From Phytophthora colocasiae (Eukaryota > Oomycota > Peronosporomycetes > Peronosporales > Peronosporaceae), in the NCBI GenBank assembly GCA_018806915.1, contig JAGKQI010000091.1, positions 3,038,001 through 3,102,000 on the forward strand: DNA of 64,000 nt, read 5' to 3'. Shown one piece after another: positions 1,281 to 56,602 of the stretch (positions are counted from its first letter, which is position 1; each line of letters starts with the position of its first letter). Both the position numbers and the translations under genes were made by a program. Below the pieces are notes generated by a model. That model ran no database searches, was not told where the DNA came from, and saw nothing but the letters and a program-made list of their open reading frames with translations.

Positions 1281-2036
1281 TGTGACGTTTAACCTCCTCT
1301 TCTGCTCAATCTGCTTACGTCTTTACAGGTTGAGTGGCGTACAGTACTGCGCTGTGTGGTCTCGCCGGGTTTTTCGTCTAGCCCGCACAACTTCAACGTC
1401 AACAACACTCGTCAGGCCCAGCTCACCTGCGCCGGAACGTCTCCGCTCCTATTTGTATTCACTCTCAACCAATGCACTCTAAAGAACGCAACTCGTTCTC
1501 TATCCTGCGTCTCAACTCGTTTCCGATCAACTACTTGTCGGGACTAACAACTGCCCTTGGATCCCGTCTCAAGCGTCGAGGGTACTGGCTAATGACCCGT
1601 TCCCGGTGGCCCGTCGTCAGTCACTCTCCGCCTAACACCGCCCAAAGCTTCAGTCGCCGTCTCTTCAAGCACTCGTTCGCACAACCAATCTCTCGGTCTC
1701 ACTTGGCAAGTCTTCCACTCGCTGACTCTTCCTCCGCTCTTCGTGGTCAATTCGATACAGCAGTCTCCGTCCCTCGTGGTGAATTCTGCACTGACAGTCT
1801 CCTTCCGTCGTGCAGTCGTCCGTTTCGTTCTCTCACTACCGCTTCTCGCATTCAGCACCTCCATGGGCCAACTGCCCGCTGAATTACGGTTGTTACACGA
1901 TCGTTTCACTCACTTCACCGTCGGTCTCCTGACGATCTTCCTCCTTAAACTGTTGCTTCGCACGTCCAGCATCCGCATCCCGCCGCACGCCATTAACGGT
2001 CATCGACTCGTCCATCAATAGGCTTGTCCTATTACA
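1281..2036 (-). repeat. 5' LTR of element E (putative)
   Basis: Read on the minus strand this 756 bp block starts TGTAATAGGACAAGCCTATT at 2036 and ends GTCACA at 1281, the usual TG...CA form. Immediately downstream on the minus strand is TGGTGGTCAT (1280-1271), which starts with the TGG of a primer-binding site, and gag follows at 1191. The partner LTR is outside the window, so the ends rest on motif form and spacing only. Confidence 0.5.
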
Positions 2037-2283
2037 CCACCAGGCGAGTCTCGGGGATTTACTGCAATAAATTATCTATCAAATACTTTTGATCAATACC
2101 GGTATTACGGAAATAACCGCGTGTGTCGGTATGGACTGCCACGTGGGGAGCTCAAATTCCGATACAGTAAGCTGCCGTCTTGTCGCGCGAAAAGTGACAG
2201 CAAGGCTCAAGACACCAGCAGATCCGCGCCGCGGAAGCCTCGTCCCCCTTCCGTCACCCCACAACTAGCACACACTATCCACC

Positions 2284-4888: not shown

Positions 4889-5596
4889 ACGGCGACTCGT
4901 GTATAGTATCCTCTGGATCGCTTCAACGGTAGTAGAAGGAGCGTAGAGATCGACATCTCAGGGAGCTGGAAATCAAGACACCAAGTGCAAGCTCTGACGC
5001 TAGAACAAGCGGGCGTGTCAGTGCCGGACCGGACCGTCAACGTAGATTGAATGGAAGCAGATAAGGAAGAAAGAAAATACAGAAGTGTCTGAGCTGTGAA
5101 CTTTGCGTCGAAGAGGAGCTGTGTTGTTTACCTCTCGCTCACTGTGTCTTCTTTACTTCTGTCTGTTGGTCGTCTGGTAATATTTCTTGTTTGTCTTCGC
5201 ACTCTTCATCACTGGCGGAACTGGAAGCAATGCTGCGCTCATAGTAAAAGCACGGGGAAGACCATGAAGACTCGTCACAGACTCGGGAAGTACCACCTCT
5301 CTTCATGAGATACGTGGCCAAGGCGAAGCGCATGACGCAGCTAGTCATCTCCATGTTGTAGAGGTTTGGTGCGGAATCCAAGAATGATGGTCATCACTTC
5401 AACTTCAGAAGAGAGTTTTTGTAACGGAAGAGCCGGAATTGACACGAACGAATGTAGCTTCAATACTGGAACTGCACCGAAGCTTCGGGTGTTTCGCCAC
5501 GGTCAATGGAAAGCACGACCGTCCGTCTAAACATTGACGGCTCTTGGTCATAGCAGTTCCCAACCATCCGTGACAAGAACAAAAGGAGACAACGGT
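4889..5596. other. Intergenic region, no gene recognised
   Basis: This holds the 3' flank of the tepsin-like gene. Only short open frames without recognisable motifs are present, and no repeat shared with the rest of the window was noticed. Confidence 0.5.
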
Positions 5597-5974
5597 ATGC
5601 AAGCTTCTACCCAGCCGAGTTTTATAGTGCAAGATGAAGTGTTCGTTGGGGAACCTGAGAGTGATGAGGAAGTGGAGCTAGGAGTGAATCTAATCGACAC
5701 TTTCACTGAAAACCAATCGAATCTCAAGTACCAAGTCCCTAAGACAACCCCATGGGGTCTTCAATCTGTGTATGAGCTCGACGCCTGTGCCCTTCTTCCA
5801 GCCGAGGCTTGTCGAAATGAAGACATTTACAACTCAGACCTCGATGACGTTGAACAAGAAGTACTGAGTAAAGCTCTTCTAGATGACCAAGACATCTCTA
5901 TGAAGGCTGAGAATAAGACGCTGGTGTTTCTCTACGGTGTATGCTTAAAGTGCGCATCTGAGTCGTGGCTGTAG
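5597..5974 (+). CDS. Hypothetical acidic protein, 125 residues
   Basis: The ORF starts at an ATG at 5597 (MQASTQPSFIVQDEVF) and ends at 5974. It is acidic, with an EPESDEEVE patch near the start and NSDLDDVEQEV in the second half, and its composition looks like coding sequence rather than random translation. I do not recognise a family. A GTATGC sequence near 5938 could be an intron donor, so this may be one exon of a longer or decayed gene. It could also be a remnant of a transposon-encoded protein. Confidence 0.35.
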   Translation: MQASTQPSFIVQDEVFVGEPESDEEVELGVNLIDTFTENQSNLKYQVPKTTPWGLQSVYELDACALLPAEACRNEDIYNSDLDDVEQEVLSKALLDDQDISMKAENKTLVFLYGVCLKCASESWL

Positions 5975-7262
5975 AAAAGAAAGTCTATAATCAACAGTTT
6001 AACACTACCGGTACTTATACGATGTGTACGGCTTGACTCGTAGCAGCGGACGCCGTAGTAGATTGCTGTGCTTTTGGTACATGAAGCACGTCGGTTGGAC
6101 ACTCACGGTGACGCAGAGCCAGACCGCTAATCTCGAACTGGTCAAACAGTTCGGAGCTGTTCAGGTATTTGTTACCAACGTTCAGTAGGTCGCACTTGAG
6201 CAGTCTGTGAGAGAACGCTTCGTCGTCCAAGAGTACTCGGGCCAAGTGATGTGGCTTGAAATATCTCTCAACGTCAGCTTCACAGCGTTTACCTCCAAAA
6301 AAGACCAATACAGCCCATCGCACAGCCTATCAGCATGAGCATAGCCGATAACTGAGGCACCGACAACGTTACATCACGTACTTGACACAGTAAATACCAC
6401 ATTCCCCAATACCACCAACGCAAAGCGCGACCATCGAGAACTCGTTTCATCCATTCTCATAAAGGCGAGTAGGACCGACCATATCAAAAGTTTCACCAAT
6501 ATCGACATCACCAGTCCAACGTAGAAATTGTACGTATCAATATCGTCCCAAAGCCTGATTTCATATAAGTTAGTATTTCAAGGCACCTCGCAAGCTACAC
6601 CTGCTGTTACCGGTATGGCTTGTTCTTCTCTAAAGAGTGGCTACTTGATTGCTTGTTGAAAACGGTACCAATAATGCAGCGTTTGCTATGAGCACTGAAT
6701 CTGTCGTTGCTCTACAACGTGGAATCGTTTTTCGGCCCTCGATTAATTTCCCGTCTGTGTTGGCAATGTTGAGGAAAATGGATCCACTGCGTCCGTAAAA
6801 GAAGCGGCCACACTTTTGGCTTGTGACGGCGATGGTGTAGTCCGTTGACAACTGTCAATGACAAGTGATCGGAAATCACCACTACATGTATTACCTGCTG
6901 CCACTACAGCCAGCTCTGGGTTTAAATAAAAGCGTTCAAATCCCTGGCTTGTGAGCTTTAGACAGATCCAGGCGTAACCACGAGAAGAAAAAATTTCAGC
7001 TCCAGTGTTTCAAGCAGGTCAATGGCATCTGCAGAAGTGGTTGACGGTACAACACAAGAGTCCCTTGAACAAATCCTCTTGTGTCCCAACCATGAATGCA
7101 ATCCGTGAGATCGGTTTACCAATCGAATCTCGATCGCACGCGCAGCAGTTCCAAAAAAAAACGAGCACCAGAGCCGAAACAGATTACACGCATGGCTCAC
7201 GGTGGTTTTGACAGCCAAAACGTAAAATCTTGTACTTAGGAAAGCATCATAGTTGTCATTTA
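5975..7262. other. Gene-poor stretch with unassigned ORF fragments
   Basis: Several short minus-strand frames occur (6015-6323, 6630-6851, 6958-7218). The first has plausible protein composition (CEADVERYFKPHHLARVLL) but no ATG start and no family I recognise. The others show no motif. The region may hold decayed transposon sequence, but I cannot name it. Confidence 0.3.
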
Positions 7263-9023
7263 CTATCCATGGATGGTGGCTCGGCTTTCCAACAGCGATT
7301 CGATGTCCTTGAGGAGTGATTTAGCTGTGGGTCTGCTAGGCGGATGTTTCTTCAAACACATTGCTTTTATACTTTCCAGTTCAGGCGGAAGATCTTGAAC
7401 ACGCGATGTCCTCAAAAGGAAGCCCACGCCCCAAATGTCAACCTTGACCGTGTGGGACGAAGATAATATTTCAGGAGCATGCGATTCTGCCTTCAAATGG
7501 GTTACTTTTGCTGCAGGAGATCGTGTTCCCTCGTCAAAGTCAATTAGAAACCACTTGTCTTTATCGGTGTACTTCAACACATTATCCCATCGCAAGTCTC
7601 GATGCATCAGATTGATTGCGTGCAGAGCCACGAGAGCTTGGAGTATATCGCGCAAGGCCACCAGGAGCTGGTGGACATTTGCAGGCGGGGAAAGCCGACC
7701 AATGGGTGTCAGTTCCACGCATTTCTTTTTCAGATTTGGCCTCTTTAGCTTCACAACGTTGGGGACTGAATTCTGCTTCATTTGACGATGCAATTCCTTC
7801 AGATTGCGAATTATGTCGTCGCTTGGCATGCTCGAAGGATACGTCTTCACGACACAATCTTCTGCGAACGTAATCTGCACGCCATTGCTCCTTTCGATAA
7901 TGCCGTACTCTGGTACGTCCAGCGGCTTGATTAGATTCACAACTGGATCGAAAAGAGTCGAAAGGTTGAGCATGGCGAGGAAGAACGACAGTCGGCCACG
8001 GAGAGCACCCAAATCGTACGTCTGGATTTCTTCCACTTTAGTGCGTTTCGTCTTCCCGACTTGCTGGATAGTAACCAAGCAGATTCGCATACCCACCGCA
8101 GCGTAGCCAAAAACGTATGGCGCACCGTCATATCGCCATGTTAGCTTCTCGTGCAATTCAGTCATCGGCACTTGCATGTCGCCGCTCGCTTTTTCCTCAC
8201 CACGAAAAACGCATATATTGCTGTCCTTGTAGTAGAAGCACAAGTCTGGTCGATAGGGGCCAGTAGAAGCGGACGCATTCGTGTTGCGACGAAATCTCCC
8301 GGTTGACACGCGCCTCAACAGTCCGGCGATGAGGGAATCCCACAAGTGAATATACGTGTTTTCAGTAGCGAACTCGGTACCAGATCCGACGGGGTCGATG
8401 ACACTACTCACAATGACCGCAGTAATGTCTGAAATAATGTCACATGATTCAGGCTCAAATACTTTCTCCAAAATGCTGTCTAACAATCTTGTTGTGTTCA
8501 TCGCGGCCACGATCATCAATAATCTGCGATTGATGGGGACCTTAACGTGAAGCGGGCGTTGAAGGTGCTCTTTCAACTCTTCACAAGTTAACGGTAGTGT
8601 TGTAACCTGATCATACTGGAGAGACTTTATCCAACTGTCTGTAGCGATTTCGTCTTCAATTCTTTTCCTCTTCCTATTGTTCTCAGATGGACCAGCATTC
8701 TCCAGAGCCACCACCAACACGTGGACTTGGCCCTCACCTGGGTGAAAATTCGATCCGAAGTAGTCGTCATTCCTGACTTTCAGAGTGGGGTTCATCGGTG
8801 TAAAATGTTGAAGGTCTTCGAAGACCACAGCTGTCGCGCTAGGTCCATCCAGCCATTCTCCTTCCTTGTTTTTCGCCAAGAAGAGCTGCATTTTGCTGTT
8901 AGGGTAGCCGAACTCTGGCTCCACTCTGATTGCCTTCTTCAACGCGGACACCGAAGCATCTTCAGCGATGTCCACCTCGAACGCGCTTTCCGCCTCCCCA
9001 ACGATCGCACAGAAGCACTTCAT
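7263..9023 (-). CDS. Crinkler (CRN) effector with REase-like and kinase-like domains
   Basis: The frame is open from 9131, but the ATG at 9023 begins MKCFCAIVGEAESAFEVDI, the typical start of CRN header domains, giving 586 residues. The header is ubiquitin-like and has QLFLAK at residues 46-51, matching the LFLAK translocation-associated motif; WLDG and a HVLVV segment near residue 105 close the N-terminal module. NRKRKR near residue 115 could be a nuclear localisation signal. Residues about 170-340 resemble a PD-(D/E)xK nuclease fold, with RPD (D260) followed by GEEK (E276, K278). Residues about 370-586 resemble a protein kinase: HRDLRWDN near 474-481, DFD in place of DFG near 495, and APEI. 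CRNs are host-directed cytoplasmic effectors of oomycetes. No stop or frameshift is visible. The 5' end lies only 165 bp from the PiggyBac-like insertion at 9193, which may have separated it from its promoter. Confidence 0.85.
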   Translation of the reverse strand: MKCFCAIVGEAESAFEVDIAEDASVSALKKAIRVEPEFGYPNSKMQLFLAKNKEGEWLDGPSATAVVFEDLQHFTPMNPTLKVRNDDYFGSNFHPGEGQVHVLVVALENAGPSENNRKRKRIEDEIATDSWIKSLQYDQVTTLPLTCEELKEHLQRPLHVKVPINRRLLMIVAAMNTTRLLDSILEKVFEPESCDIISDITAVIVSSVIDPVGSGTEFATENTYIHLWDSLIAGLLRRVSTGRFRRNTNASASTGPYRPDLCFYYKDSNICVFRGEEKASGDMQVPMTELHEKLTWRYDGAPYVFGYAAVGMRICLVTIQQVGKTKRTKVEEIQTYDLGALRGRLSFFLAMLNLSTLFDPVVNLIKPLDVPEYGIIERSNGVQITFAEDCVVKTYPSSMPSDDIIRNLKELHRQMKQNSVPNVVKLKRPNLKKKCVELTPIGRLSPPANVHQLLVALRDILQALVALHAINLMHRDLRWDNVLKYTDKDKWFLIDFDEGTRSPAAKVTHLKAESHAPEILSSSHTVKVDIWGVGFLLRTSRVQDLPPELESIKAMCLKKHPPSRPTAKSLLKDIESLLESRATIHG

Positions 9024-9192
9024 CTTTCCTCGCGGCGGCAGATTCTGGAATGAGGGAGAATTTCTGGGCAGCAACGTCGTTGCCAACGAAGGCGTGTCAC
9101 AGAGATTTCCAACCAATGGGTGTCTTCTCATAAAAATGACCCTTTTATCACAGCTTTTACGGTATAAAACCCCAAAAACCGAAACCTTTTAA

Positions 9193-9296
9193 CCCTTTCG
9201 AGGTCATAGGGTGCATTTTGCCCCCTTGTTACAGTTCAAGAAGCACCCATCAAAACGGTAATGAACTTCATTATGAAGGGGCATTTTGCCCCCGTT
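9193..9296. repeat. Left end and subterminal repeats of the PiggyBac-like element
   Basis: CCCTTTCG follows TTAA at 9193. GGGTGCATTTTGCCCCC lies at about 9210-9225 and GAAGGGGCATTTTGCCCCC at about 9276-9293. The second is a hairpin-forming inverted repeat (GGGGCA/TGCCCC) also found near the right end. Confidence 0.65.
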
Positions 9297-9571
9297 GGCA
9301 GAAGTTCAACTGCACATCTCCTTCTGTAATTACGACCAATCATATCATCCTCTGGAAACTATAATTTACGCGATGTGTCAAACATCATGGAAATTTATGC
9401 ACTTAAGTACGAAAACTATCAAGATTGCGTCAGCAAACACTGCTTTAAGTACGTAATTTTTGTGACACTCACGCACCATTGAGTGGATCTCCTGTCTCTA
9501 AACTCAGCACTCCTACTGATATTTCTTTACTGAAACTAAGTCATTTGCCTACCTGTAGTAGCACAGCAATC

Positions 9572-9686
9572 ATGGCCACATCGTTCACTTTTGAAGATGA
9601 TAAGGAACTTGTGCAGCAGGCGCGCACCTACGTCAATGCAGGTACAAGGATCGCGGGCTAATGTGGCCCATCGTATGCAGCGCACT
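9572..9686 (+). pseudogene. SANT/DOT1-like gene, first part (SANT domain start), split by element A
   Basis: The ATG at 9572 starts MATSFTFEDDKELVQQARTY, the first helix of a SANT/Myb-like domain as seen in oomycete DNA-binding proteins. A one-base deletion near 9654-9658 shifts the frame and creates a stop at 9661. Beyond it, the +1 frame encodes ANVAHRMQRT up to 9686. The next codons are found 46.9 kb away at 56603 (GHCVKSLQERLRTLKKAWG), which completes the SANT domain. The gene was interrupted here by element A, with GCACT duplicated at 9682-9686 and 56598-56602. The frameshift is separate from the insertion. Confidence 0.75.
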
Positions 9687-9790
9687 TGTAATAGGTCTAC
9701 CTAGACCTATTAGGTGGCGTACACGTGCGCTTACGTGTATGAGGAAGCGTGCAATTAGAATAGACTTAATTTAAGTATACTTATTTAAAT
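9687..9790 (-). repeat. 3' LTR of element A, terminal 104-bp fragment
   Basis: The sequence matches the inner end of the LTR at 56138-56240 almost exactly, starting TGTAATAGGTCTACC. It is cut at about 9790, where it runs into the inverted DOT1 copy. The five bases TAAAT (9786-9790) are present in both parent sequences, so the joint used microhomology. Confidence 0.85.
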
Positions 9791-10735
9791 CGCGGCGAAC
9801 TTCAATGCCGATAGCTTTGTTCACGTTAGTGCCTAGGGCAACTTGCGCCACCACATTCCCGACCCCGGCACCGATATCGAGGAAGATACCCGAATTGTCA
9901 AGTTCACCCAGCTCACGGATAAGAGAAGAAATTCCACACGGCATCAACTCGCCGGCATTGCGGTGGGGCTTCTTGTTGGTGCCCTGGATAACCACTTCAC
10001 GAGGAACGTCAGCAAAAATCGTTGCTACAGTTTGCTCACACCTTGACGGTGACATTGGGGGTGATCGTTCTTCTTCTGGGGCCTCCAAAGTGTCTGTCGA
10101 TCCCGTATTGCTGCTGGTGTCGCTTGAGGTTACTGCTGCGCCGTCATCACGAGCGGAGCGTAACGCCAGCGAAGCTCCAGCAACAGCAAATAGTTTGACG
10201 GTGCCTTCAGGTGTTGGCCGAGATTCGTCTGTTACTTCTGGCGAATTTTCACGAGCAACAGTATCTGCTGGGCGTGGCGACGGTGCCGTACTTGTAGGTT
10301 GTAGGTTACTTGATGGAGGCAATGTCGAAGGAGGAACTGGAGCCACTTGTGGTGTTATGGGGGTCTGCCGTGGAGTTTCTGCTCGGAGCTGTGCACGTGG
10401 TGGTCGTGGTGGGATTTTTACAGCAGGATGTCGCGGATATGCTGGAGGAAGATATTGTGATTCACATTCGCCTGAGCTTCGGAGCGGTGCTGGAGGAAGA
10501 TATTGTGATTCACATTCGCCTGAGCTTCGGAGCGGTGCTGGATCTCCTGTGTCTGTACGTTGTCTTTGCGGAATGGTCGCACCAAGCCGCAACTGACGAG
10601 TCACCGCTGGTGGCCGACCACGTGGACGGCGCACTTTTGCGTAGAAGCTTGGAGGGAAACGCCGGATATCATTGCCCCACGCCTTCTTCAACGTTCGCAG
10701 TCGCTCCTGCAATGACTTCACACAGTGACCAGTGC
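9786..10735 (-). pseudogene. Inverted partial copy of the SANT/DOT1-like gene
   Basis: On the minus strand this copy starts right after the GCACT target site (10735) and encodes the second half of the SANT domain (SLQERLRTLKKAWGNDIRR), an RPRGRPP AT-hook, a Pro/Ser-rich linker and the DOT1 start with DIGAGVGNVVAQVAL and GIEVRRDL. It stops at 9786, where it fuses to an LTR fragment, so the rest of the methyltransferase domain is missing. It matches 56598-57546 with only a few differences, for example NPQR against IPQR. The 48-bp tandem repeat (10443-10490 and 10491-10538) is shared with the other copy. It has no ATG of its own and is best seen as a passive passenger of the inverted duplication. 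Confidence 0.85.
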
Positions 10736-11194
10736 TGTAACGGGGTTACACGTACAAGTGGTTGTACCACTTGTAACTCTACCAGTTAGGATAACTGTTA
10801 GAGGTTGGAAATGGGCCTCAGACCTTGGTGTGCTGTACACACCAATGGATACATGGGCGAACCACATTATTGGATGGTTCGTGTGCATTTGTGCATATTA
10901 TTGGTAGAAAGTAACGGATTTCTACCAATCACTGAGCAGAGTTTCTGCCAACACACGTTGGTAGACCCTTTAGAAATAGATAATAAACAGTTTTAGGAGT
11001 TCCATAATTGGCTTATGCCAAATTCAATAACAGTTCTCATTTTTACGGTATTTTGCAGTTTAATTTAGTTATATTTGATTTAATTAAACTTATTTAAATA
11101 AGTATACTTAAATTAAGTCTATCTAATTGCACGCTTCCTCATACACGTAAGCGCACGTGTACGCCACCTAATAGGTCTAGGTAGACCTATTACA
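10736..11194 (+). repeat. 5' LTR of inverted copy A1
   Basis: The block begins TGTAACGGGGTTACACG and ends AGACCTATTACA. It is 459 bp and matches the LTR at 56138-56597 in inverted orientation. AGTGC, the complement of GCACT, precedes it. Two bases after its end TGGTAGCACTTTG may be the primer-binding site. The LTR holds perfect hairpins, for example ACAAGTGG/CCACTTGT near 10756. Confidence 0.85.
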
Positions 11195-11243
11195 CCTGGT
11201 AGCACTTTGTAGTCCGTCCCACGACCGACTGCAGTTCGTTCGT

Positions 11244-12230
11244 ATGGAGTCATACGAACGCGGGGTAGAGAACTCCCCAATGGATGAGGGATCCGCTGGG
11301 ACCCCTCAAATGTCCGTGACGCGCACGGACTGCGCCCACCTGTCTGATCCAGAGTGGGAAGCTCTTCAAAGACTTTCGCAAGTCATTGGAGAGGCGGCGG
11401 TAGCGACGATGCTTCGTACGCTATCGCTGACAGAGCAACACGGTGTTGCTCTGGGGTACATTGTTAAGGAGCAACGAGATGTTGCTGCCTCGGTTGCTTC
11501 CCCTAAGCCACGCGTGGAGTCGTTGAAACTCCACGTGAGTACCTACACGGGGAAGGAGGACGAGACCCTCCTTCGGTGGCTTGTCGAACTCGACACAGCC
11601 GTTGCGGCTCGACGTATCGTCGATCCGATGTCGAAGGTCGCGTTCGCCATGTCATGTCTTGGCGGACGTGCGAGGAGTTGGGCCTATGGGCGCCGACTCT
11701 CGGATCCTACGTGCTTCAGCACGTACGAGGTGTTCAAAGAGGAACTCAAGCTTGCGTTTGAGCCCTCGAAGAACGAGTTCAGATCGAGAGCGGAGTTTCT
11801 CGATCTGCAGCAGGGCAAGGATGATGTTCACACCTTTGCCCAGCGTGCTCGATACTTGGTATCGAACATAGTGGCCAACCCGATCGACGAGGCGACCAAG
11901 GTCGTCACGTTCATGAAGGGACTAAGAGATGGTCCCGTCAAAACATATCTCTTCCGAGAGTATCCGAATACTCTCGAGGAGGCAATCAGCCTTGCAATGC
12001 AAGAGGAGTTTAGCCGGCGTCAAGCTAAACTCCATGCGAACGCGCCGAAGCCGGCGCGTCCTGTTGTGAAGACGGGAGGTCCGGAACCTATGGACCTCTC
12101 GAGTGCTACGACTGCTGGTCAACAGCAGCGTAGGAACAGCAAGGTTCGATGTTACAAGTGTAGTAACATCGGTCACTATGCACGCGAGTGCACAGCGGGC
12201 GGGCGTTCAAAAAACGCCAAGGACCAGTAG
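11244..12230 (+). CDS. Gag of element A, inverted copy A1, intact
   Basis: The 328-residue ORF starts at an ATG lying inside a perfect 10-bp-arm hairpin (11237-11260). Residues about 90-255 are a Retrotrans_gag-like capsid region (WLVELDTAVAARRI, RSRAEFLDLQQGKDDVHTFAQRARYL, FMKGLRDGPVKTYLF). A CCHC zinc knuckle, CYKCSNIGHYAREC, lies near the C terminus. The protein would form the retrotransposon particle and bind RNA. It follows the LTR by 49 bp. The sister copy at 55123-56088 has lost the knuckle through a frameshift, so this copy shows the original form better. The coding sequence is full of short inverted repeats. Confidence 0.85.
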   Translation: MESYERGVENSPMDEGSAGTPQMSVTRTDCAHLSDPEWEALQRLSQVIGEAAVATMLRTLSLTEQHGVALGYIVKEQRDVAASVASPKPRVESLKLHVSTYTGKEDETLLRWLVELDTAVAARRIVDPMSKVAFAMSCLGGRARSWAYGRRLSDPTCFSTYEVFKEELKLAFEPSKNEFRSRAEFLDLQQGKDDVHTFAQRARYLVSNIVANPIDEATKVVTFMKGLRDGPVKTYLFREYPNTLEEAISLAMQEEFSRRQAKLHANAPKPARPVVKTGGPEPMDLSSATTAGQQQRRNSKVRCYKCSNIGHYARECTAGGRSKNAKDQ

Positions 12231-12365
12231 GCGCGGAGCGTCCTACTGGTGATGCAGTCTCGCGTGTCGAGCTTGGACACGCGACGATGAGGACTGCTGC
12301 CCCCCAGCGAGAAGGTTTCTCGCTGTAAGCTGCAAGATGACAAGCCAAACCTTGTCATCCTGAAC

Positions 12366-14426
12366 GTGATGTCGAAGAGAGCGAACTCTCTTCGTGCCCT
12401 AGTGGACTCGGGCGCGTCGAACAACTTTGTTCGACAGGGAAGTCTTCGAAGGCTTGACTTCGAAGAGGCCGACACGCCTCGCGGCGTGTTGGAGGTGCGG
12501 TTGGCAACAGGTGCCACCGTGAGGACTGAGAAGCGCGTAGTCCGTGTGCGCTTTTCTTACAAACGAAGGACGTTTGTAGAAGATCTTATCGTCTTGGATC
12601 TAGACGATAAGTTCGACTTGGTATTAGGCATGGCGTGGCTTGCACGGCATGACCCGGTGATCAACTGGGAGAAGCGTACGCTCGTACGCTTCAACAACAC
12701 ATGCGCGACAGAGAGCGATGGCCCTGTCAGTGCTGCACATGCACCGGCCGTTGCATGTGAATCCCCAGTTGAGGCAGCAGCGGCCGCCGCTGCCTCCGAT
12801 CGCCGCCCGAGAGTCGTTGTGAGAAAATGTGCGTCGACTCAGAAATCTGAGCCGAAGGGTCGCGGTCACATGAGTGATGGTCAGGTGAATGTGAATCACC
12901 TGACGCGTAAACATCTGAATGGTGTTTGTCACATGAGTGATGGTCAGGTGAATGCGATTCACCTGAGAGAAGGTAACATACCGGTATTACCGGTATCCTT
13001 GGAGGTACTTCAAGCCTCCAAGGGTCGCGCCGACGACGTCGCGTCAACTCTGGGAGTTGACGAAATAAATAATATTCGGGGAACCGAAAGGCGTGCGTCA
13101 GCTCTGGGAGCTGACGCCACTGGCGCGTCGCTGCTAGTTCTGGGAACTAGCGATCGTGCATCAGCTCCGGGAGCTGATGATGCGTGTACAGGCGAACGTT
13201 CGCTGCTAGTTCCGGGAACTAGCGATCGTGCGTCAGCTCTGGGAGCTGACGATATGTGTACAAGCGAACACTCGCTAGCGCAGTAAGCTAGCGAGAGCAC
13301 GTCGACTCCGGGAGTCGACGATGCGGTTGCTTCATCCGTAGTAGCGGGTGAAGTTGCTCCATCCGTTGTAGCGGATGGAGGCGCAGCGGTTCAGGGAACC
13401 GACTGCGCGGCAGGAGGTGCTGGCGGTTGCAAACGCCCAGCACCCGAACAACCTGCGTGCTCACGTGCAGCAGCGCTGCACGCGATGAGCGGCACTCAAG
13501 CAGGACTTGATAGTGCGAGTCAGCGGAAGGAATCCGCTGACGATTGCGATAACGTCCCGTCCAAGGTGCGATGCCTTGGACGTGGAGCACCTGGAGCCGG
13601 GCTCCATGGTAGATCTTCGCGGCGCAAGCTCAGGGAGCTGCGCGAGTCTCAGTCCGGGACTGAGACGGTGTATCTGCAGGGCAGACACCGAGTGTCGAGA
13701 CGTTGAACGTCTTGACACGTACTGGTACTGGGTTACAGTACCAGAGGATGCGGTTGGAGAATCCGCCGACGAGTGCGTCGGCGTTGACCGCACTTCCAAC
13801 GATGAGTTGGAAGCGCTTCGCACGAGACTTGTACGATGGACGCATCGAACAAATTTGCATTCTCTCGGATATCGAGAGAGTGGAGCGCGAGGCCGAAGAG
13901 CTGAAGCAGCTCGTCGTCGATGGGATCACTGAGGGTGATGACTCCCTCAGTGCGAAGACTAAGAAGCAGCGCTTCGAAGAGCAGAGTTGGGACTCGTTGA
14001 GGTCGAGTCCCTACTACGAAGTTCAGCGGGAGTACAAGGATGTACTCCCGGACGAGATTCCTTCGGAACTTCCGAAGGATAAGGGCGTACAGCACGAGAT
14101 TGATCTCGTGCCGGGCACGAAGTACTGTGTTACACGGCAGTGGCCACTGCCGCATGAACAAGTGCAAGCGATCGACGACTTCTTTGAAAGTCGTCGTCTT
14201 GCAGGTCAAGTGCGGGAAATCAAAGTCCCTGCACAGTGCTCCAACGTTCTGTGTTAAGAAACCACAGGGCGGCTGGCGCATCGTTCATGCGTATAACAAG
14301 CTGAACGATGCGACGATACCGGCGCAGACGCCGATACCGCGAAAAGATGTTATCATCGATTCGATGGCCTTGAGCACTATCTTCAGTGCTCTAGATCTGC
14401 GTGATGGATTCTATCAGATCCTATAA
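12366..14426 (+). pseudogene. Element A protease and start of reverse transcriptase, copy A1
   Basis: The ATG at 12366 begins MMSKRANSLRALVDSGASNN, a retropepsin active site (D-S-G), followed by VRLATGATVRTEKR and LVLGMAWLARHDPVINW, typical of oomycete Gypsy proteases. A TAA at 13284-13286 ends the frame where the sister copy reads GAA. From about 13703 the same polyprotein continues in other frames with a linker (LYDGRIEQICILSDIERV) and the RT start (HEIDLVPGTKYCVTRQWPLP), then after another frameshift near 14217 with KKPQGGWRIVHAYNKLND and SALDLRDGFYQIL. At 14426 the RT is cut off by a deletion. The site that holds element B in the sister copy is empty here (near 14214). Confidence 0.8.
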
Positions 14427-14487
14427 GTGGGTGCGCAAGTACGTCCGTGCTTGCGAGGTTTGTCAACGCGTGAAGACTGCGCACATG
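14424..14487 (+). pseudogene. Integrase zinc-finger fragment of copy A1 at a deletion joint
   Basis: Straight after the RT motif FYQIL the sequence encodes YKWVRKYVRACEVCQRVK, which in the sister copy lies in the integrase HHCC region near 16700 (minus). About 1.3 kb covering the rest of RT, RNase H and the integrase start is missing. After CTGCGCA at about 14485 the sequence leaves A1 and enters the 3' part of the minus-strand copy, so the two copies meet tail to tail here. Confidence 0.75.
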
Positions 14488-14538
14488 TCGAGGGCGCTCA
14501 CTGCCCCACGCACTGATCCGCCAGTGCGCACACCATGG

Positions 14539-15559
14539 ATGCCTACTGAGGCTGAGATCCATGACTGGTTCGGTGCAAGTTCACCACCGAACCCGATACT
14601 GTTGTACTCATGCAACAGTATCAACGACGACGACGTCGCCGCTAAGGTTGTCTTTGAGTCCGAGACTCAAAGACGCGACTACTATATCGGGCTCTTCCAC
14701 GAGCTCCGATACTATGCAGCGAAGAAGACTTCGCGCAAGAGCAAAGTGCCAGAGTGGCAGGCACTTTGTCAGTCGTGGAATGCCTTTGTTGAATACTTCA
14801 ACAAAGACCCGAAGGCATATCGCGAGCGCGTTGCTACGGCTCGCGATCGCTACTACACTTACACTACGCGTGGTAAGTGTGAACGCCTCCATGATCAGTC
14901 CATGGAAGCGGGGATCCCATGTGCCGTTCCCTTTGGCACACCCTGCCCGTGTTGCCAACCCTTGGCAACACGCCTCTCTGAAAGTGATCTCCTGGGGTAC
15001 ACGGTCGTCCGTGTACCCGATCACATCAAGGAGCTCCGTGGTCGTCTCGAGCCACGCGGAGCTCCGAGTGCTGTGGCTGACCGCAGCACTCCTCGTGCAG
15101 GGCTTACCCCTGCAAGTTGTGGTGCCCTCACCATTTCCGGAACGTCCTCCATCAGGACGTTCCGCGGCTCCCTCCAACGAATACGAAAACGAACCCCTTG
15201 AGAGTTCGTTCTCTTATGAGCCACGATCCGCTCCACAATCCAGCGGATCGCTCCACACGCGTCGCGCAACGGCGGCGGAGGGGGTGGGAACACTCCCTCC
15301 GCATGGTCAACGCTATGACCATGACGATTGCGCCCTGCACGATCGAGTTGCTGCGCTGGAGCAGACACAGAGCGCTGAGATAGCTGCTCTGAAGCAGGAG
15401 GTTCGTGTCCTCCGTGCTGAGGTCTGCGAGGCAGCTCAGACTGCCTCGAACCTCTCGTCCGGCCTTGGGACGAGAGTGAACCGGTTGATCGACCGTGTCG
15501 ACGGTCTCGAGAAGGCCTTCCAGGTCTCTCGCACTCCTCAGTCGGACTACCAACCCTAG
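14539..15559 (+). pseudogene. Antisense ORF candidate of element A (unknown protein with coiled coil)
   Basis: Relative to the minus-strand A element this plus-strand frame lies 3' of the integrase, the place where elements B and C carry an antisense ORF. It starts MPTEAEIHDWFGASS and reads LFHELRYYAAKKTSRKSK, then CPFGT-like Cys-rich residues (GTPCPCC). A frameshift around 15150-15180 leads into DRVAALEQTQSAEIAALKQE and VNRLIDRVDGLEKAF, a convincing coiled coil, ending at 15559. Protein composition looks genuine, but part of it overlaps the minus-strand chromodomain (15021-15722), so one of the two readings could be a shadow. I see no clear similarity to the B and C antisense proteins. Confidence 0.4.
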
Positions 15560-18216
15560 GTAGTCCGTGCTGCACGTACGGCTTCAACCGCCCGACGTAG
15601 AAGGTCGGGTGGAGCCTCATGCTGGACGGCCAGCCGGTACGCGTTGCCGTGCCGTTCAAGTACTTTGAACGGCCCAATGAATCTTGGAGCAAGCTTGCTT
15701 GCTCCAAAGTCAGACACTGCATGTCTAGGTAGGTTTTGTGTAGCTAACAAAACTAATGAACCCTTTTCGAATTCATTTGTGTTGCCTCTACCAACAGTAT
15801 CAGCGTTCAGCTTCTTTCGACCGACAGAAGCTGCAATAGCATCCTGGACAAACCGTATGACGGCTTGTCTTCGCTGGACAAAGTCTAGCGCACTCGAGCT
15901 GACTCCTATCAGCTTGTCGCCTTTGTCAGCAGCAGGCCCTGCCTGCTCGCTATCATCTCTCATGTCTGTGCCCGGCACAGACATCGCGCGCTCGTTTCTG
16001 CTCGAACGAGACGTCGCACGCGTCACCACAGCTGATAGTGTGCTGCTATCAGTTGCATTCTGCGGTTGTTCGGACGCAACCGTAGATCCTCTCCCACTTA
16101 AAAAGGAAGCTACTCCGCCGAGCATGCTCGGCAATCGTGGATGCCTCATGGCATTCACGTAGAACGGTGTATGCCCTGTCGAGGCATGCACCGAGTTGTT
16201 GATGGCAAACTCTGCCATCGGCAAGCACTCGCTCCAATGCGGGAACGAGTGAGCGTAGCCCTTCAGCGTGTCACCCAGTACGCGGTTGACACGTTCGGTC
16301 TGTCCGTCCGTCTGCGGATGATCCGCAGTCGACATTGACAATTGTGAACCAAGAAGTGTAAACACTTCTTGCCAGAACCGCCCTGTGAAGCGTGGATCAC
16401 GGTCCGACATAACGTCGAGCGGCATGCCATGGTGTTTGAACATGTCAACAAACAGTCGCGCAGTCTGAGCGGCTGTAACAGTAGCCGGGACGGCAGCAAG
16501 ATGAACCATCTTGCTGAATCTGTCCACAAAGACAACGATGCCCGTCCTCCGCTTGCTGTTAGGCGGAAGACCGAAGCCAAAGTCCATGGACATGGACTGC
16601 CAACACTCCGACGGAGTCGGTAGTGATTGAAGAGAAGCCTGCGAGAACTGCGCAGGCTTCACGCGTTGACAAACCTCGCAAGCACGGACGTACTTGCGCA
16701 CCCACTTGTACTGGTGGTGCCAGTAGAAGTCACGCGTGAGAAGAGTGTATGTCTTCTCACGACCCGGATGCCCTGCCGTGGGGGCATCGTGATACTCGAA
16801 CATGATCCTCAACCGGAGGTCATGATCATTCGGAGCGACAATGCGATCCGCATTGTCGTCTACTGCACTGTACAACAGTAGGCCTTCGTGTACACGATAG
16901 CGGTGTACACGAGCTCGAATATGAGGGGTTAGCTTCCGACGTGCCACGTCGGAAGGTGCTGCGAGGAACTCCAGCAGCCCCTTCGCGTCTGCATCCCTTG
17001 CATACGCGTTCTTCACGTCGTCAATCAACGTTGACGACGGCACACTTGTCCTCACGACGCCAACACAGTTGGCGTCGACCGTCTTTGTACTCCACCCGGA
17101 AGTTGTACTCCGCGAAGAAGGACAACCATCTCGCCATACGTTGCGAGATGTGCGGCGACTTAATCGCCGTACGCAATGATGCGTAGTCTGTATAGACCAC
17201 GAACGGTCTACTCCCAAGTAGATACACTCGGAACTTTGCGAGTGCATACTTCATGACAATGAGCTCCTTGTCATGTACGAGATAGTTACGCTCAGCTGGC
17301 TTCGGTTGACGCGATTGATAGTAGACTACACGATCACGCCCTTCGTGATCGTGTTGCATCACTGCACATCCGATTGCAAAGTCGGATGCATCGCACACTA
17401 CGTGGAATGGACGATCTTGGTCTGCCACGGCCAAGATCGGCGCTTCAGTCAAGCCCTGCTTGACTGCACCGAATGCATCCTTGCACTCGGTCGTCCAAAT
17501 CCACTCAGCTTCTTTCTTAAGAAGCTGTGACAACGGGCGAATCTTGCCCGCATAGTTGTCCGCGTACTTACACAAGTACGTGGCAAGCCCAAGGAACTGC
17601 CTCAGTTCCTTCACATTGGATGGCGTGGGCCATTCATTGATCACTCTGACCTTCTCTGGGTCAGGGCGCTACGCCGTCTTTCCCCACGAGACACCCCAGC
17701 ACGGGTATCTCGCTCGCCCCGAAGATACACTTCTTCAGGTTCGCATAGAGCTTATGCTTCCTCATAAACTCTAGCAGCTTCCGGAGATGCACCTTGTGCA
17801 TCTCAATGTCCGTCTTCCCGTTCACAGCCCGGCTGTGGACGAACACGTCGTCGAAGTAGCTCGGTGCGAAGTCGCGCACCGAGCGTAATAGATGTGTCAC
17901 GCATCTATTGAACGTCGCAGGGGCGTTCTTAAGCCCCTGTGGCATGACGAGCCACTCCCAAACATACCGCTTGGAGTGCTTACCGCAGTGAGAGGGATGT
18001 CCCTCTCACGCATGAGGATCTGATAGAATCCATCACGCAGATCTAAAGCACTGAAGATAGTGCTCAAGGCCATCGAATCGATGATAACATCTTTTCGCGG
18101 TATCGGCGTCTGCGCCGGTATCGTCGCATCGTTCAACTTGTTGTACGCATGAACGATGCGCCAGCCGCCCTGTGGTTTCTTAACACAGAACGTTGGGGCA
18201 CTGTGCGGGGACTTCG
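15021..18216 (-). pseudogene. Element A pol, 3' half: RT, RNase H, integrase, chromodomain
   Basis: On the minus strand, RT continues from element B's insertion site: DVIIDSMALSTIFSALDLRDG (18136-17897 region), then MPQGLKNAPATFNRC and SYFDDVFVHS, the catalytic YxDD box. RNase H follows (17644-17021: FHVVCDASDFAIGCAVMQHD, HDKELIVMKYAL). The integrase (17247-15556) has an HHCC finger (YHDAPTAGH ... CEVCQRVK) and DDE residues in SMDFGFG, SDRDPRF and GQTERVNR. A further frame (15722-15021) gives LHPTFYVGRLKPYV and a shortened chromodomain, IRWIVERIVAHKRT...FRIRWREP, that appears to lack the usual GYPPSxDTWE-type core. At least three frame changes make it non-functional. No second RNase H is present, unlike elements B and C. 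Confidence 0.8.
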
Positions 18217-18220
18217 ATTC

Positions 18221-19907
18221 TGTCGCGAAGTCGGTGAAACTTTGGTCGCGGAGCAGGGGCGTATAGTGAACCCTAGTTATACGACTACTGAAAAGGGGTT
18301 TTCAGAGCCGTACAACGGTAGGTTGGCGTGTGGTACCTTGCGGTATCCTCGTGGGTTCGTTGTCTTCGGAAATATGACCCTCGCCGGAGTCTGAGAATGT
18401 GTTATGAGGAGAAGTTGGTATTCCCTAGGAGTCTGGTGTCGGTATTCAGGAAATCCTTCCAGGAGCGTTCGGGAGTCGGAATCTCTGGGAACCAGAATGG
18501 TTTCCAGGAAGTCGGCAGTCGAAAAGAGGTTAATATACCAGAGAGAAGTCTGAAATCGGTGTCTGAATATCACAAATCCAGAACCGAAATACCTGACTTT
18601 CAGAGATAAACAACCAATATTCAGAGCTCGAAAATATACAAATATATACAGCCGTTCTTATTCTTTCTAGGCCCTTGAACGGTGGGCTAACACTCCAGGT
18701 CAACTAGGGAGACTTGCTACCAGACACCTGGTCTGTCTGGTATCCCTTTACGTTCGCGCACCACCCTCTAGTATAGAGGGAAAATATAAACCAATACAAT
18801 CGGCTATATATAACAGTCTACCTTGCACTCTGAAAACGACTGTCTAGTTTCCAGAGCCTGTCCAAACGAGCAATATGAAATGGGCTACCGCTAGAGACAA
18901 AACAAACGACCCAACTAGGATATGGAATAGGCAGGTCCTTTCAGGTCGCTACGTTACCTGATCTCCGCCTAAGGGGATTGAATAGGCGAGAGATCACACG
19001 GCAGCGATGCTTGGCGTGGCCTTGCAAACAGAAATACAACGACTTCTGGGTTACACGGCAAATTGAACTCTGTTTATCGTTTATCTTCCTCATAACTATC
19101 ATATCTTTCTGGTATTTCTCTTCTTCTTGTCATCTTTTGCGTCCTTTCAGCAGTCAGTCTTCATATGTCAGGTACACTTGGCTCTTGTATATATAAGATG
19201 TCTTGACTTGATCTCAGTATGCAGTCTGTGCAGCCGATCTCGATGGGTTAACAGGTAGAGACGTCATTACGGGGGATGTGCAGGTCAGTAATCACTTGAA
19301 TGCATGACTTGAACTTGGGTTCACTTGGTTTCAGTATGGTCTTGAATCTTCGGTGGTTTCAGAGTCTGGTATCCTGGTTTTCAGAGTCTGATATCACTTG
19401 GTTTTCAGAGTCTTGGTCACTCAGAGTTAGAGATACCAGAGTTTTGAGTAAGAAACCAGAGTACGGAGCACCAATGCTACAACGTACACAAAGATCTTGA
19501 AGGTTGCGCGGGTGCGCGGCGTCCGGCGCGCGATACTTGGTCTCTGCGGGTATATATTGTGAATCCTTGAACCATCCATCGTCGCGCTGGACGGTAACGG
19601 GATGAGGTCTCTCAGAGATACGTTCTTCTGAGAGACTTTCCGCCAGAACTTAGGCACTCATCGTCGGGGAAAGTCCGATGACCAGACAGAGTGTAGTTGA
19701 TCTTCAGAGTTGTGCACACTCTGAAGTACACTTCTGGTCCTTTGGGCCCCTTTACAGTCAGGCGAAGGTTTATCCACAATCTTCCACAGATGTCGCACGG
19801 GTGCGGCTGCGTCCCAAAGTCCCTTTCGCTTATAACCATAGTATAACCAATCACATCGTAACGTAACATCTGCCTGTCGCTCGAAAATCGGAAATAACAT
19901 CATGTCA
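18221..19907 (-). repeat. 3' LTR of element B
   Basis: On the minus strand it starts TGACATGATG at 19907 and ends CTTCGCGACA at 18221. It is repeated at 51303-52990 with few differences. It is rich in TTTCAGAGTCTGG-type words, especially 19330-19450. Confidence 0.9.
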
Positions 19908-19920
19908 ACCGCCCCTCCTG
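19908..19920 (-). other. Polypurine tract of element B
   Basis: The minus strand reads CAGGAGGGGCGGT immediately before the 3' LTR start (TGACATG). Purine-rich tracts at this position prime plus-strand DNA synthesis in LTR retrotransposons. Confidence 0.6.
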
Positions 19921-42382: not shown

Positions 42383-42384
42383 GC

Positions 42385-52990: not shown

Positions 52991-52994
52991 ATTC

Positions 52995-54987
52995 CCGCAC
53001 TTGACCTGCAAGACGACGACTTTCAAAGAAGTCGTCGATCGCTTGAACTTGTTCACGCGGCAGTGGCCACTGCCGTGTAACACAGTACTTCGTGCCCGGC
53101 ACGAGATCAATCTCGTGCTGTACGCCCTTGTCCTTCGGAAGCTCCGAAGGAATCTCGTCCGGGAGTACATCCTTGTACTCCCGCAGAATCTCGTAATAGG
53201 GACTCGACTTCAACGAGTCCCAACTCCGCTCCTCGAAGAGTTGCTTCTTGGTCTTCGCACTGAGGGGGCCATCGCCCTCAGTGATGCCATCGACGACGAG
53301 CTGCTTCAGCTCCTCGGCTTCGCGATCCACTCTCTCGATATCCGAGAGAATGCAAATTTGTTCGATGCGTCCATCGTACAAGTCCCGCGCGAAGCGCTTC
53401 CAACTCATCGCGGTCAACGCCGACGCGCACGTCGGCGGATTCTCCAACCGCATCCTCTGGTACTGTAACCCGGTACCAGTACGTGTCAAGACGTTCAACG
53501 TCTCGACACTCGGTGTCTGCCCTGCAGATACACCCTCCTCAGTCACGGACTGAGACTCACACAGCTCACTGAGCTGGTGCCGCGCGCTCTGATACTGTAC
53601 CGCAGTATCAGTTCGTGTCAAGACGTTCAACGCCTTGACACTCGGTGTCTGCACTGCAGACACACCCTCCACAGTCACGGACTGAAACTCGCATAGCTCC
53701 CTGAGCTTGCACCGCGAAGGTCTGCCATGGAGCTCAGCTCCAGGCGCTCCACGTCCAAGGCATCCCACCTTGGACGGGACTTTATCGCCATCATCAGCGG
53801 ATTCCTTCCGCTGACTCGCACATTCAAGCACTGCTTGTGTGCCGCTTATCGCGTGCAGCACCGCTGCACGTGAGCACGCAGGTTTTTTCTGGTGCTGGAC
53901 GTTTGCAACCGCCAGCACCTCCTGCCGCGCAGTCGGTTCCCTGAACCGCTGCGCCTCCATCCGCTCCTACGGATGGAGCAACTTCACCCGCTACTACGGA
54001 TGAAGCAACCGCATCGTCGACTCCCGGAGTCGACGTGCTCTCGCTAGCTTCCTGCGCTAGCGAGTGTTCGCTTATACATATATCGTCAGCTCCCAGATCT
54101 GACGCACGATCGCTAGTTCCCGGAACTAGCAGCGAACGTTCGCCTGTACACGCATCATCAGCTCTCGGAGCTGATGCACGATCGCTAGTTCCCAGAACTA
54201 GCAGCGACGCGCCAGTGGCGTCAGCTCCCAGAGCTGACGCACGCCTTTCGGTTCCCCGAATATTATTTATTTCGTCAACTCCCAGAGTTGACGCGACGTC
54301 GTCGGCGCGACCCTTGGAGGCTTGAAGTACCTCCAAGGATACCGGTAATACCGGTATGTTACCTTCTCTCAGGTGAATCGCATTCACCTGACCATCACTC
54401 ATGTGACAAACACCATTCAGATGTTTACGCGTCAGGTGATTCACATTCACCTGACCATCACTCATGTGACCGCGACCCTTCGGCTCAGATTTCTGAGTCG
54501 ACACACATTTTCTCACAACGACTCCCGGAGTCGTTGATGGTCGCCGGCAGCGATCGGAGGCAGCGGCGGCCGCTGCTGCCTCAACTGGGGATTCACATGC
54601 ACCGGCCGGTGCATGTGCAGCATTGACAGGGCCATCGCTCTCTGTCGCGCATGTGTTGTTGAAGCGTACGAGCGTACGCTTCTCCCAGTTGATCACCGGG
54701 TCATGCCGTGCAAGCCACGGCATGCCTAATACCAAGTCGAACTTATCGTCTAGATCCAAGACGATAAGATCTTCTACAAACGTCCTTCGTTTGTAAGAAA
54801 ATCGCACACGGACTACGCGCTTCTCAGTCCTCACGGTGGCACCTGTTGCCAACCGCACCTCCAACACGCCGCGAGGCGTGTCGGCCTCTTCGAAGTCAAG
54901 CCTTCGAAGACTTCCCTGTCGAACAAAGTTGTTCGACGCGCCCGAGTCCACTAGGGCACGAAGAGAGTTCGCTCTCTTCGACATCAC
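52995..54987 (-). pseudogene. Element A protease and reverse transcriptase start, main copy
   Basis: On the minus strand from 54987 the protease begins with the same retropepsin site as in the inverted copy (LVDSGASNN) and stays open to 53824, past the position where copy A1 has a stop. From 53960 an overlapping frame gives a linker and the RT start (QHEIDLVPGTKYCVTRQWPL) up to the element B insertion at 52994. A block ending LNVLTRTxTxxQYQ is present twice in tandem here and once in A1. The domain continues at 18216 on the far side of B. Confidence 0.82.
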
Positions 54988-55122
54988 GTTCAGGATGACA
55001 AGGTTTGGCTTGTCATCTTGCAGCTTACAGCGAGAAACCTTCTCGCTGGGGGGCAGCAGTCCTCATCGTCGCGTGTCCAAGCTCGACACGCGAGACTGCA
55101 TCACCAGTAGGACGCTCCGCGC

Positions 55123-56088
55123 CTACTGGTCCTTGGCGTTTTTTGAACGCCCGCCCGCTGTGCACCCGCGTGCATAGTCTACACTTGTAACATCGAACCT
55201 TGCTGTTCCTACGCTGCTGTTGACCAGCAGTCGTAGCACTCGAGGTTCCGGACCTCCCGTCTTCACAACAGGACGCGCCGGCTTCGGCGCGTTCGCATGG
55301 AGTTTAGCTTGACGCCGGCTAAACTCCTCTTGCATTGCAAGGCTGATCGCCTCCTCGAGAGTATTCGGATACTCTCGGAAGAGATATGTTTTGACGGGAC
55401 CATCTCTTAGTCCCTTCATGAACGTGACGACCTTGGTCGCCTCGTCGATCGGGTTGGCCACTATGTTCGATACCAAGTATCGAGCACGCTGGGCAAAGGT
55501 GTGAACATCATCCTTGCCCTGCTGCAGATCGAGAAACTCCGCTCTCGATCTGAACTCGTTCTTCGGGGGCTCAAACGCAAGCTTGAGTTCCTCTTTGAAC
55601 ACCTCGTACGTGCTGAAGCACGTAGGATCCGAGAGTCGGCGCCCATAGGCCCAACTCCTCGCACGTCCGCCAAGACATGACATGGCGAACGCGACCTTCG
55701 ACATCGGATCGACGATACGTCGAGCCGCAACGGCTGTGTCGAGTTCGACAAGCCACCGAAGGAGGGTCTCGTCCTCCTTCCCCGTGTAGGTACTCACGTG
55801 GAGTTTCAACGACTCCACGCGTGGCTTAGGGGAAGCCACCGAGGCAGCAACATCTCGTTGCTCCTTAACAATGTACCCCAGAGCAACACCGTGTTGCTCT
55901 GTCAGCGATAGCGTACGAAGCATCGTCGCTACCGCCGCCTCTCCAATGACTTGCGAAAGTCTTTGGAGAGCTTCCCACTCTGGGTCCGACAGGTGAGCAC
56001 AGTCCGTGCGCGTCACGGACATTTGAGTGGTCCCAGCGGATCCCTCATCCATTGGGGAGTTCTCTACCCCGCGTTCGTATGACTCCAT
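55123..56088 (-). pseudogene. Gag of element A, main copy, zinc knuckle lost
   Basis: It is the inverted counterpart of 11244-12230 and nearly identical over the capsid region (321 codons). After KTGGPEP the frame shifts for about 30 residues (RVLRLLVNSSVGTARFDV) where copy A1 encodes the CCHC knuckle; the frame is regained at CTAGGRSKNAKDQ. The shift and its compensation leave the ORF open but remove the nucleic-acid-binding motif. Confidence 0.85.
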
Positions 56089-56137
56089 ACGAACGAACTG
56101 CAGTCGGTCGTGGGACGGACTACAAAGTGCTACCAGG

Positions 56138-56597
56138 TGTAATAGGTCTACCTAGACCTATTAGGTGGCGTACACGTGTGCTTACGTGTATGAGGAAGCG
56201 TGCAATTAGAATAGACTTAATTTAAGTATACTTATTTAAATAAGTTTAATTAAATCAAATATAACTAAATTAAACTGCAAAATACCGTAAAAATGAGAAC
56301 TGTTATTGAATTTGGCATAAGCCAATTATGGAACTCCTAAAACTGTTTATAATCTATTTCTAAAGGGTCTACCAACGTGTGTTGGCAGAAACTCTGCTCA
56401 GTGATTGGTAGAAATCCGTTACTTTCTACCAATAATATGCACAAATGCACACGAACCATCCAATAATGTGGTTCGCCCATGTATCCATTGGTGTGTACAG
56501 CACACCAAGGTCTGAGGCCCATTTCCAACCTCTAACAGTTATCCTAACTGTTAGAGTTACAAGTGGTACAACCACTTGTACGTGTAACCCCGTTACA
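56138..56597 (-). repeat. 5' LTR of element A, main copy
   Basis: It is 460 bp, the inverted partner of 10736-11194. GCACT (56598-56602) follows on the outside. It contains a perfect hairpin with 12-bp arms, CTCTAACAGTTA/TAACTGTTAGAG (56530-56556). Confidence 0.9.
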
Positions 56598-56602
56598 GCA
56601 CT

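Follow-up and report, generated by a model that had tools for sequence, protein, structure and literature searches.

We analysed a stretch of 64,000 nucleotides from Phytophthora colocasiae (contig JAGKQI010000091.1, positions 3,038,001 to 3,102,000; the whole stretch is called the window here), which contains parts of a long terminal repeat (LTR) retrotransposon named element A. As judged from its sequence, element A is a Ty3/Gypsy LTR retrotransposon. It was found that one perfect short hairpin occurs per 70 to 90 bases of this element, in genes and ends alike, that the stems are of Watson-Crick type, strand-neutral and indifferent to codon register, and that the loops of some hairpins are inverted among copies. 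Perfect, strand-neutral, coding-blind hairpins with flipping loops in one retroelement family are best fitted by template switching. Our reading, to which we give a probability of about one half, is that recurrent local template switching turned the whole of element A into a string of short perfect palindromes.

Hairpin density in element A and in control sequences

A hairpin was counted as a perfect inverted repeat with arms of at least 8 and a loop of at most 10 bases. The scan returned 172 such repeats across the window, with 12–38 per 2 kb between 10 and 18 kb, 7–34 per 2 kb between 52 and 58 kb, where a second copy lies, and 0–3 in the rest. The density in element A was 11–12 per kb. For the stretches 9687-14422 and 14423-18219, 56 hairpins (11.8 per kb) and 42 hairpins (11.1 per kb) were obtained versus means of 0.60 and 0.50 after dinucleotide shuffling (30 shuffles per stretch); 52992-57547 contained 12.1 per kb, and the shuffle means of the three stretches were 0.5–0.7. 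In the genes the excess over codon-preserving shuffles (60 per open reading frame, ORF) was 20- to 45-fold: the counts and shuffle means were 9 and 0.20 for gag, 19 and 0.67 for the protease (PR), 17 and 0.72 for the integrase (IN) and 8 and 0.37 for RNase H. The LTR was similarly dense (5 hairpins in 463 nt). The saturation described in the first-pass annotation is thus real, and a density no greater than that of shuffled sequence, which would have spoken against it, was clearly not what we found.

In contrast, 11 control ORFs in the window, including a Crinkler (CRN)-like gene and chromodomain Gypsy pol ORFs, had only 0–2 hairpins each, with shuffle means of 0.13–0.63. No hairpin was found in 1-9600, versus 1.20 in shuffled sequence. 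Two control stretches exceeded chance: 18221-19908 (3 versus 0.30) and 20500-51000 (12 versus 5.63, the top of 30 shuffles being 10), although six of these 12 are three hairpins counted twice, in the repeat 26808-28415 = 42381-43988. As further density controls, 16 distant Gypsy-bearing contigs from prokaryote assemblies showed 0–15 hairpins; 14 of them had 0–5, L074 had 8 and L065 had 15, and seven of the 12 hairpins listed for L065 form one overlapping cluster at 115-140.

The arm lengths of the 123 hairpins in two copies, L010 and L037, had a mode at 9 (54 versus 0.6 in shuffles, loops up to 20), and the longest arms were scarce, with two hairpins at arm 12 and one at arm 13. Loop lengths in the same copies ranged from 0 to about 10 without a single preferred size. 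No motif common to the hairpins was recognised except in one array. Six of the eight hairpins cited in the first-pass annotation agreed with the scan to within one base (11237-11260, 11431-11453, 14948-14972, 14995-15018, 15684-15707 and 56530-56556). The area given as 13012-13038 actually holds hairpins at 12997-13023 and 13042-13062, and 16032-16052 falls below the arm and loop threshold.

Copies of element A and inversion of hairpin loops

The numbers of matches in the P. colocasiae genome are lower bounds. The 5' query gave at least 52 (40 scored out of 435 candidates) and the 3' query at least 80 (40 scored out of 770), a 59-bp stretch making up about half of the latter; the reverse transcriptase (RT) gave at least 111 (111 scored out of 4281), with 84–100% identity. 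Queries with P0016 and P0084, aimed at more divergent families, gave 89 and 116 matches; the places compared were all of family A, and no other family was recognised among them. All 61 loci examined were hairpin-rich, with 25–76 hairpins each, and in the first 30 loci the 500-base bins free of hairpins lay outside the stretch homologous to L010. L061, chosen as a divergent copy, was 95% identical to L010. Prevalence rounded to 0.9 or 1.0 for 59 of the 98 hairpin places in 30 five-prime loci.

For the 5' alignment the rearranged L007 was left out of 41 loci, and the 40 remaining rows represent 38 distinct copies, because two copies were cut twice (one as L011 and L052, the other as L015 and L053). 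Of the 20 three-prime rows, three (L045, L034 and L031) come from copies that the 5' set also samples, in other parts (L013, L023 and L001). Comparison of these copies showed that hairpin loops had been swapped for their precise reverse complement while the arms stayed as they were. The changes were AAG to CTT, GCT to AGC, CACAC to GTGTG, GCG to CGC and, with two bases altered, three more. When every segment of 2–30 nt whose ends change was considered, and places with flanking arms of 6 or more were taken as hairpin places, 9 inversions were found at 259 hairpin places, versus 7 at the 199,901 places outside hairpins, each of these 7 with two changed bases. When three or more bases had to differ, there were 6 at hairpins and 0 elsewhere. 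The 9 cases correspond to 7 hairpins, since part of the sequence is covered by both alignments and two hairpins scored in both, in different copies.

Some of these events appear to be recurrent. The loop of the hairpin at 12944..12966 reads CGC for GCG in 15 of the 38 rows, which stand for 13 distinct copies, and this character takes 5 parsimony steps on a copy tree of 28 rows. At another hairpin an inverted form is present for the GCT allele (AGC, 3 rows) as well as for the GCA allele (TGC, 1 row). Changes between G and C made up 35 of 324 loop differences versus 52 of 2316 outside; the GCG/CGC place supplied 20 of these 35 loop cells, and without it the fraction was 15/273. A strand switch across a hairpin would yield just this product, and the inversions point to hairpin-mediated template switching. 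Repeated template-switch events during reverse transcription were one of the two causes proposed in the first-pass annotation; the inversions concentrated at hairpins, some of them recurrent on the copy tree, support the switching itself, whereas reverse transcription as the step, and the creation of hairpins by the switches, are parts that we infer only.

Strand, wobble and codon register of the stems

If the sense RNA were under selection, G-U pairs should be tolerated on the sense strand and A-C pairs should not. Stems with one non-Watson-Crick pair comprised 9 with G-U, 12 with A-C and 13 with other pairs. Among copies, stem variants gave 120 G-U versus 107 A-C, or 39 versus 28 when restricted to variants in two or more rows (p 0.22), and G-U at the outer flanking pairs (21/123) was at the chance rate. 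The mean predicted folding energies per 200 nt were –85.4 (sense) and –85.2 (antisense) kcal/mol in the 5' half and –83.6 and –81.9 kcal/mol in the 3' half, versus –49.9 to –61.8 kcal/mol on both strands of four other stretches of the window. Neither better folding of the sense strand nor G-U tolerance was therefore found in element A, whose predicted structure is very strong and nearly indifferent to strand. The arms are of Watson-Crick type without wobble preference, as expected from template switching, bar one weak contrary tilt in relatives that is described below. In the chromodomain Gypsy pol at 34218-37628 (–), the predicted energies were –59.1 for sense and –49.9 kcal/mol for antisense, and the sense strand was lower in 15 of 17 windows, unlike in element A.

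The codon register of the two arms was 3:3 in 19 of 59 pol hairpins, a register that synonymous choice reaches in 5.8%. As the registers are unlike those open to synonymous change, the hairpins are coding-blind, and the earlier statement that they are not expected from coding constraints was right. Selection on the sense RNA was a candidate in four tests, of which three were neutral and one weakly favoured it. The other cause suggested in the first-pass annotation, selection for RNA structure, is thus unsupported in its usual sense-strand form by the pair counts, the flanking pairs and the strand energies.

Relatives in other species

The closest protein was from P. citrophthora, with 94% identity over 46% of the query; on that match the host appears Phytophthora-like. 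Protein relatives were found in Phytophthora, Peronospora, Globisporangium and unnamed contigs, and four scans found none in viral contigs. Alignments under 300 residues were excluded, and the hairpin comparisons used 16 and 30 of 120 proteins, picked by identity and species. Stems in relatives were still pairable after one change in 221/507 cases, versus 589/2006 in matched controls, and after two changes in 92/140 versus 191/368. This protein evidence suggests that Phytophthora relatives retain hairpins at the same places. Eukaryote-type Gypsy pol genes were also observed in assemblies deposited under bacteria or archaea (contigs L062–L077), and these are probably contaminants.

Proposed template switching and alternative explanations

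The proposed mechanism would begin when the growing strand, at a weak inverted repeat, folds back on itself or jumps to the complementary strand. The switched strand would copy about 8–11 bases and then return. The outcome would be a perfect hairpin, newly created or repaired, or, if the arms already match, a flipped loop. Since perfect hairpins would invite more switches, the pattern could maintain itself, and template switching would thus create, perfect and flip hairpins and have reshaped the protein. The copying enzyme would most likely be the reverse transcriptase of element A, reverse transcription being proposed as the step because it is peculiar to the element; use of the element's own enzyme may also be the reason why neighbouring sequences are little affected. 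That the same switching made the arms is likewise a conditional part of this scheme. A wider form of it, possible but in our view short of probable, would be that a Phytophthora Gypsy lineage habitually switches template at hairpins during reverse transcription, so that its genomes are continually palindromised and much of the Pol sequence is set by hairpin symmetry, with protein function only filtering the result and the same places being kept across species through covarying change.

Several observations weigh against template switching as the maker of the hairpins. Loop inversion requires hairpins and is no proof that the inversion process made them; private inversions may have arisen when the chromosome was replicated, and the number of parsimony steps may be too high if copies have recombined. 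One-step birth of a hairpin was not caught among the copies. Although one shared hairpin had two compensated pairs, the compensatory changes that the first-pass annotation had proposed to look for among family copies were not significantly above slid controls (6 compensated double stem changes in 34,112 cells versus 13 in 135,485, p 0.25), and they are not used as support for a mutational origin. Arm length has its mode at 9 and its upper end near 12, and template switching alone does not demand such limits. A weak preference for G-U over A-C showed in one comparison of relatives (65:79 versus 262:473 in controls, p 0.04). Stem differences among copies occupied 1.6% of cells versus 3.0% outside and 4.6% in loops, and selection would give the same; counted as distinct events, the contrast between stems and outside almost disappeared (0.162 versus 0.173 per site, with 0.272 in loops), but at third codon positions the events per site were 0.161 in stems, 0.246 outside and 0.389 in loops.

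The last group of results would also be expected if local structure were selected on both strands, that is, on sense and antisense RNA or on both complementary DNA strands, for example because tight hairpins would deny small RNAs or polymerases access. This is a serious rival, even if we regard it as unlikely. Only Watson-Crick pairs suit both strands, because G-U on one is A-C on the other, and the near-equal folding energies, the lower variation of stems by cells and, at third codon positions, by events, and the covariation in relatives are all in its favour; moreover, small RNAs have been mapped to Phytophthora LTR elements according to PMC3804510. However, it leaves the loop inversions unexplained, the pattern is absent from other ORFs of the window, and the codon registers show no preference for reachable synonymous solutions, so that selection would need to override the amino-acid constraint on pol. 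A classical, genome-scale ordered structure of the sense genomic RNA, selected for packaging, stability or silencing evasion, seems very unlikely to us: the predicted stability (–84 to –85 kcal/mol per 200 nt versus –51 to –62 in four other window stretches), the reduced stem differences by cells and the weak G-U tilt in relatives would agree with it, but the strand signature is missing both within stems and among copies, with the flanks at chance, the antisense strand is about as stable as the sense strand, and loops of 0–2 nt are common.

Template switching could also have acted when the chromosomal DNA of silent copies was replicated or repaired, and not in reverse transcription. For DNA replication, hairpins and loop inversions by template switching are documented (PMC8794818), but other ORFs of the window contain few hairpins, and at 59 of the 98 hairpin places a perfect hairpin is shared by roughly 90% or more of the copies, which sit at different loci, so that these hairpins predate insertion; one loop inversion is common to copies at many loci as well. 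We therefore consider this origin quite unlikely. There is a negligible probability that the hairpins result from composition, from tandem repeats or from an artefact in the sequence. A 77-bp duplication does account for part of the density in the spacer between PR and RT, but chance, base composition and codon usage are excluded as the cause by the codon and dinucleotide shuffles, and the same hairpins recur in dozens of copies.

Comparison with known systems and significance

Small inversions associated with hairpins occur in chloroplast genomes, where loops between inverted repeats flip at isolated, mostly noncoding sites; element A shares the flipping of loops, but only element A has a hairpin every 70–90 bases. 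RNA viruses and RNA phages possess genome-scale ordered RNA structure with pervasive local hairpins along the coding genome, and element A resembles them in this pervasiveness but lacks a G-U or strand signature. With oomycete Ty3/Gypsy elements it shares the gag-PR-RT-RNaseH-IN organisation, whereas the chromodomain Gypsy ORFs of the window and the 16 distant Gypsy-bearing contigs are without its saturation.

According to Monttinen and Loytynoja (2022, PMC8794818), template-switch mutations create and maintain hairpins, and loop inversion with intact arms is counted there as support for template switching. The two systems are alike in perfect stems, pairing kept through change and loop inversion with the arms intact, but the published events lie in RNA genes and are attributed to DNA replication, whereas an entire protein-coding retroelement is saturated here; the strings 'retrotranspos' and 'reverse transcript' are absent from the main text of the paper. 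The Sirevirus family (maize Copia) is likewise a retrotransposon family with a palindrome-rich stretch, which is placed in the LTR (PMC5311732); in element A, the LTR, gag and pol are all filled and no common motif was seen outside one array. Our literature searches turned up no description of a hairpin-saturated retrotransposon.

Compensatory change and long perfect stems are usually taken as proof of selected RNA structure. Element A offers a large, natural, multi-copy system in which perfect stems lack an RNA-strand signature and loops flip. The many copies per genome make it possible to ask whether mutation alone builds and maintains hairpins and even rewrites proteins. Should selection on two strands prove to be the cause, the adaptation would be an unusual one that might counter silencing. 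Both possibilities can be tested with existing genomes.

Organisation of element A and other features of the window

The gag ORF matched PF03732, PF19259 and PF00098, i.e. capsid and zinc knuckle domains. PR, RT and RNase H follow in that order in L010, the inverted half copy in the window has an RNase H ORF followed by an H2C2-rve ORF, and RT and IN matches share one open frame in the same genome, which gives the pol order PR-RT-RNaseH-IN. Direct LTRs are indicated by comparison across copies: the downstream ends of L032, L033, L037, L040 and L044 match 10733-11195 at 95–97%. In L010, gag (445-1431) and pol (from 1389) overlap by about 43 nt (1389-1431) in the –1 frame, suggesting programmed frameshifting. 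A scan for transfer RNA genes found none in 9–20 kb.

The first-pass annotation had taken 10736-18216 as one element. The region (10733-18219, with the LTR start at about 10733) actually consists of two half copies: 9687-14422 is the 5' half with its flank on the + strand, and it abuts the 3' half of another copy on the – strand (18219-14425). In other copies the 5' half continues unbroken into RT-RNaseH; therefore the supposed 'antisense ORF' is the integrase part of pol, seen in an inverted half copy, and the idea that element A includes an antisense gene is rejected. The coordinates are collected in Table 1.

Table 1. Features of element A in the window
Feature	Position	Strand	Remarks
5' LTR of element A copy 1, about 463 bp	10733..11195	+	5 hairpins: 10753, 10825, 10900, 11088, 11169; matches 3' LTRs of five other copies
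gag (Retrotrans_gag, Ty3_capsid, zf-CCHC)	11244..12230	+	9 hairpins inside ORF
5' part of pol: protease domain (RVP_2) and start of PR-RT spacer	12366..13286	+	19 hairpins in 918 nt
Hairpin with 3-nt loop GCG / CGC	12944..12966	+	loop-inverted in some copies
Hairpin array	13042..13320	+	most with core CTCYGGGAG, arms varying in concert; includes 77-bp duplication
End of + strand half copy	14218..14422	+	= 18219-18015 inverted, 97%
Inverted 3' half of element A copy (RT-RNaseH-IN and downstream)	14425..18219	-	42 hairpins in 14423-18219
Integrase part of pol (Integrase_H2C2, rve)	15556..17247	-	'antisense ORF' of the first-pass annotation
RNase H domain ORF of pol	17021..17644	-	domain match
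Hairpin CGACGCCAAC-N3-GTTGGCGTCG	17055..17077	-	loop GCT inverted to AGC; inverted rows L019, L020, L051, L042
Hairpin GAGATGCAC-AAG-GTGCATCTC	17784..17804	-	loop inverted to CTT in L030, L039
5' half of second element A copy (LTR about 56138-56600, gag, PR, start of RT)	52992..56600	-	LTR limits projected from copy 1
Homologous block including flank	52992-57547	-	55 hairpins
12-bp perfect hairpin in LTR of second copy	56530..56556	-	inverted-repeat scan

The second 5' half (57547-52992) is 97% identical to the first over 9786-13746 and 93% beyond, flank included. These inverted, near-identical blocks (9786-14422 / 57547-52992, 93–97%) reach 0.9 kb into the flank upstream of the LTR and, from their sequence, are best described as an inverted segmental duplication, not two independent insertions. 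Direct repeats of 1.69 kb (18221-19908 / 51303-52991, 99%) border element A pol at a point that is identical in the two halves, which fits LTRs of another element inserted into element A, with further elements nested inside. Other direct repeats of 1.6 kb (26808-28415 / 42381-43988, 99.6%) enclose the chromodomain Gypsy element and may be its LTRs; the ORFs of that element have 0–2 hairpins each.

Upstream of the LTR of copy 1, 9687-9790 is a 104-bp inverted copy of the LTR end (11092-11194), and the flank contains a 55-bp exact repeat at 10440-10542 that is present in both inverted blocks. The ORF at 7263-9131 (–) combines a Crinkler N-terminal domain with a protein kinase domain and is without hairpins. 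A 180-bp tandem duplication (99%) was observed at 59364-59725.

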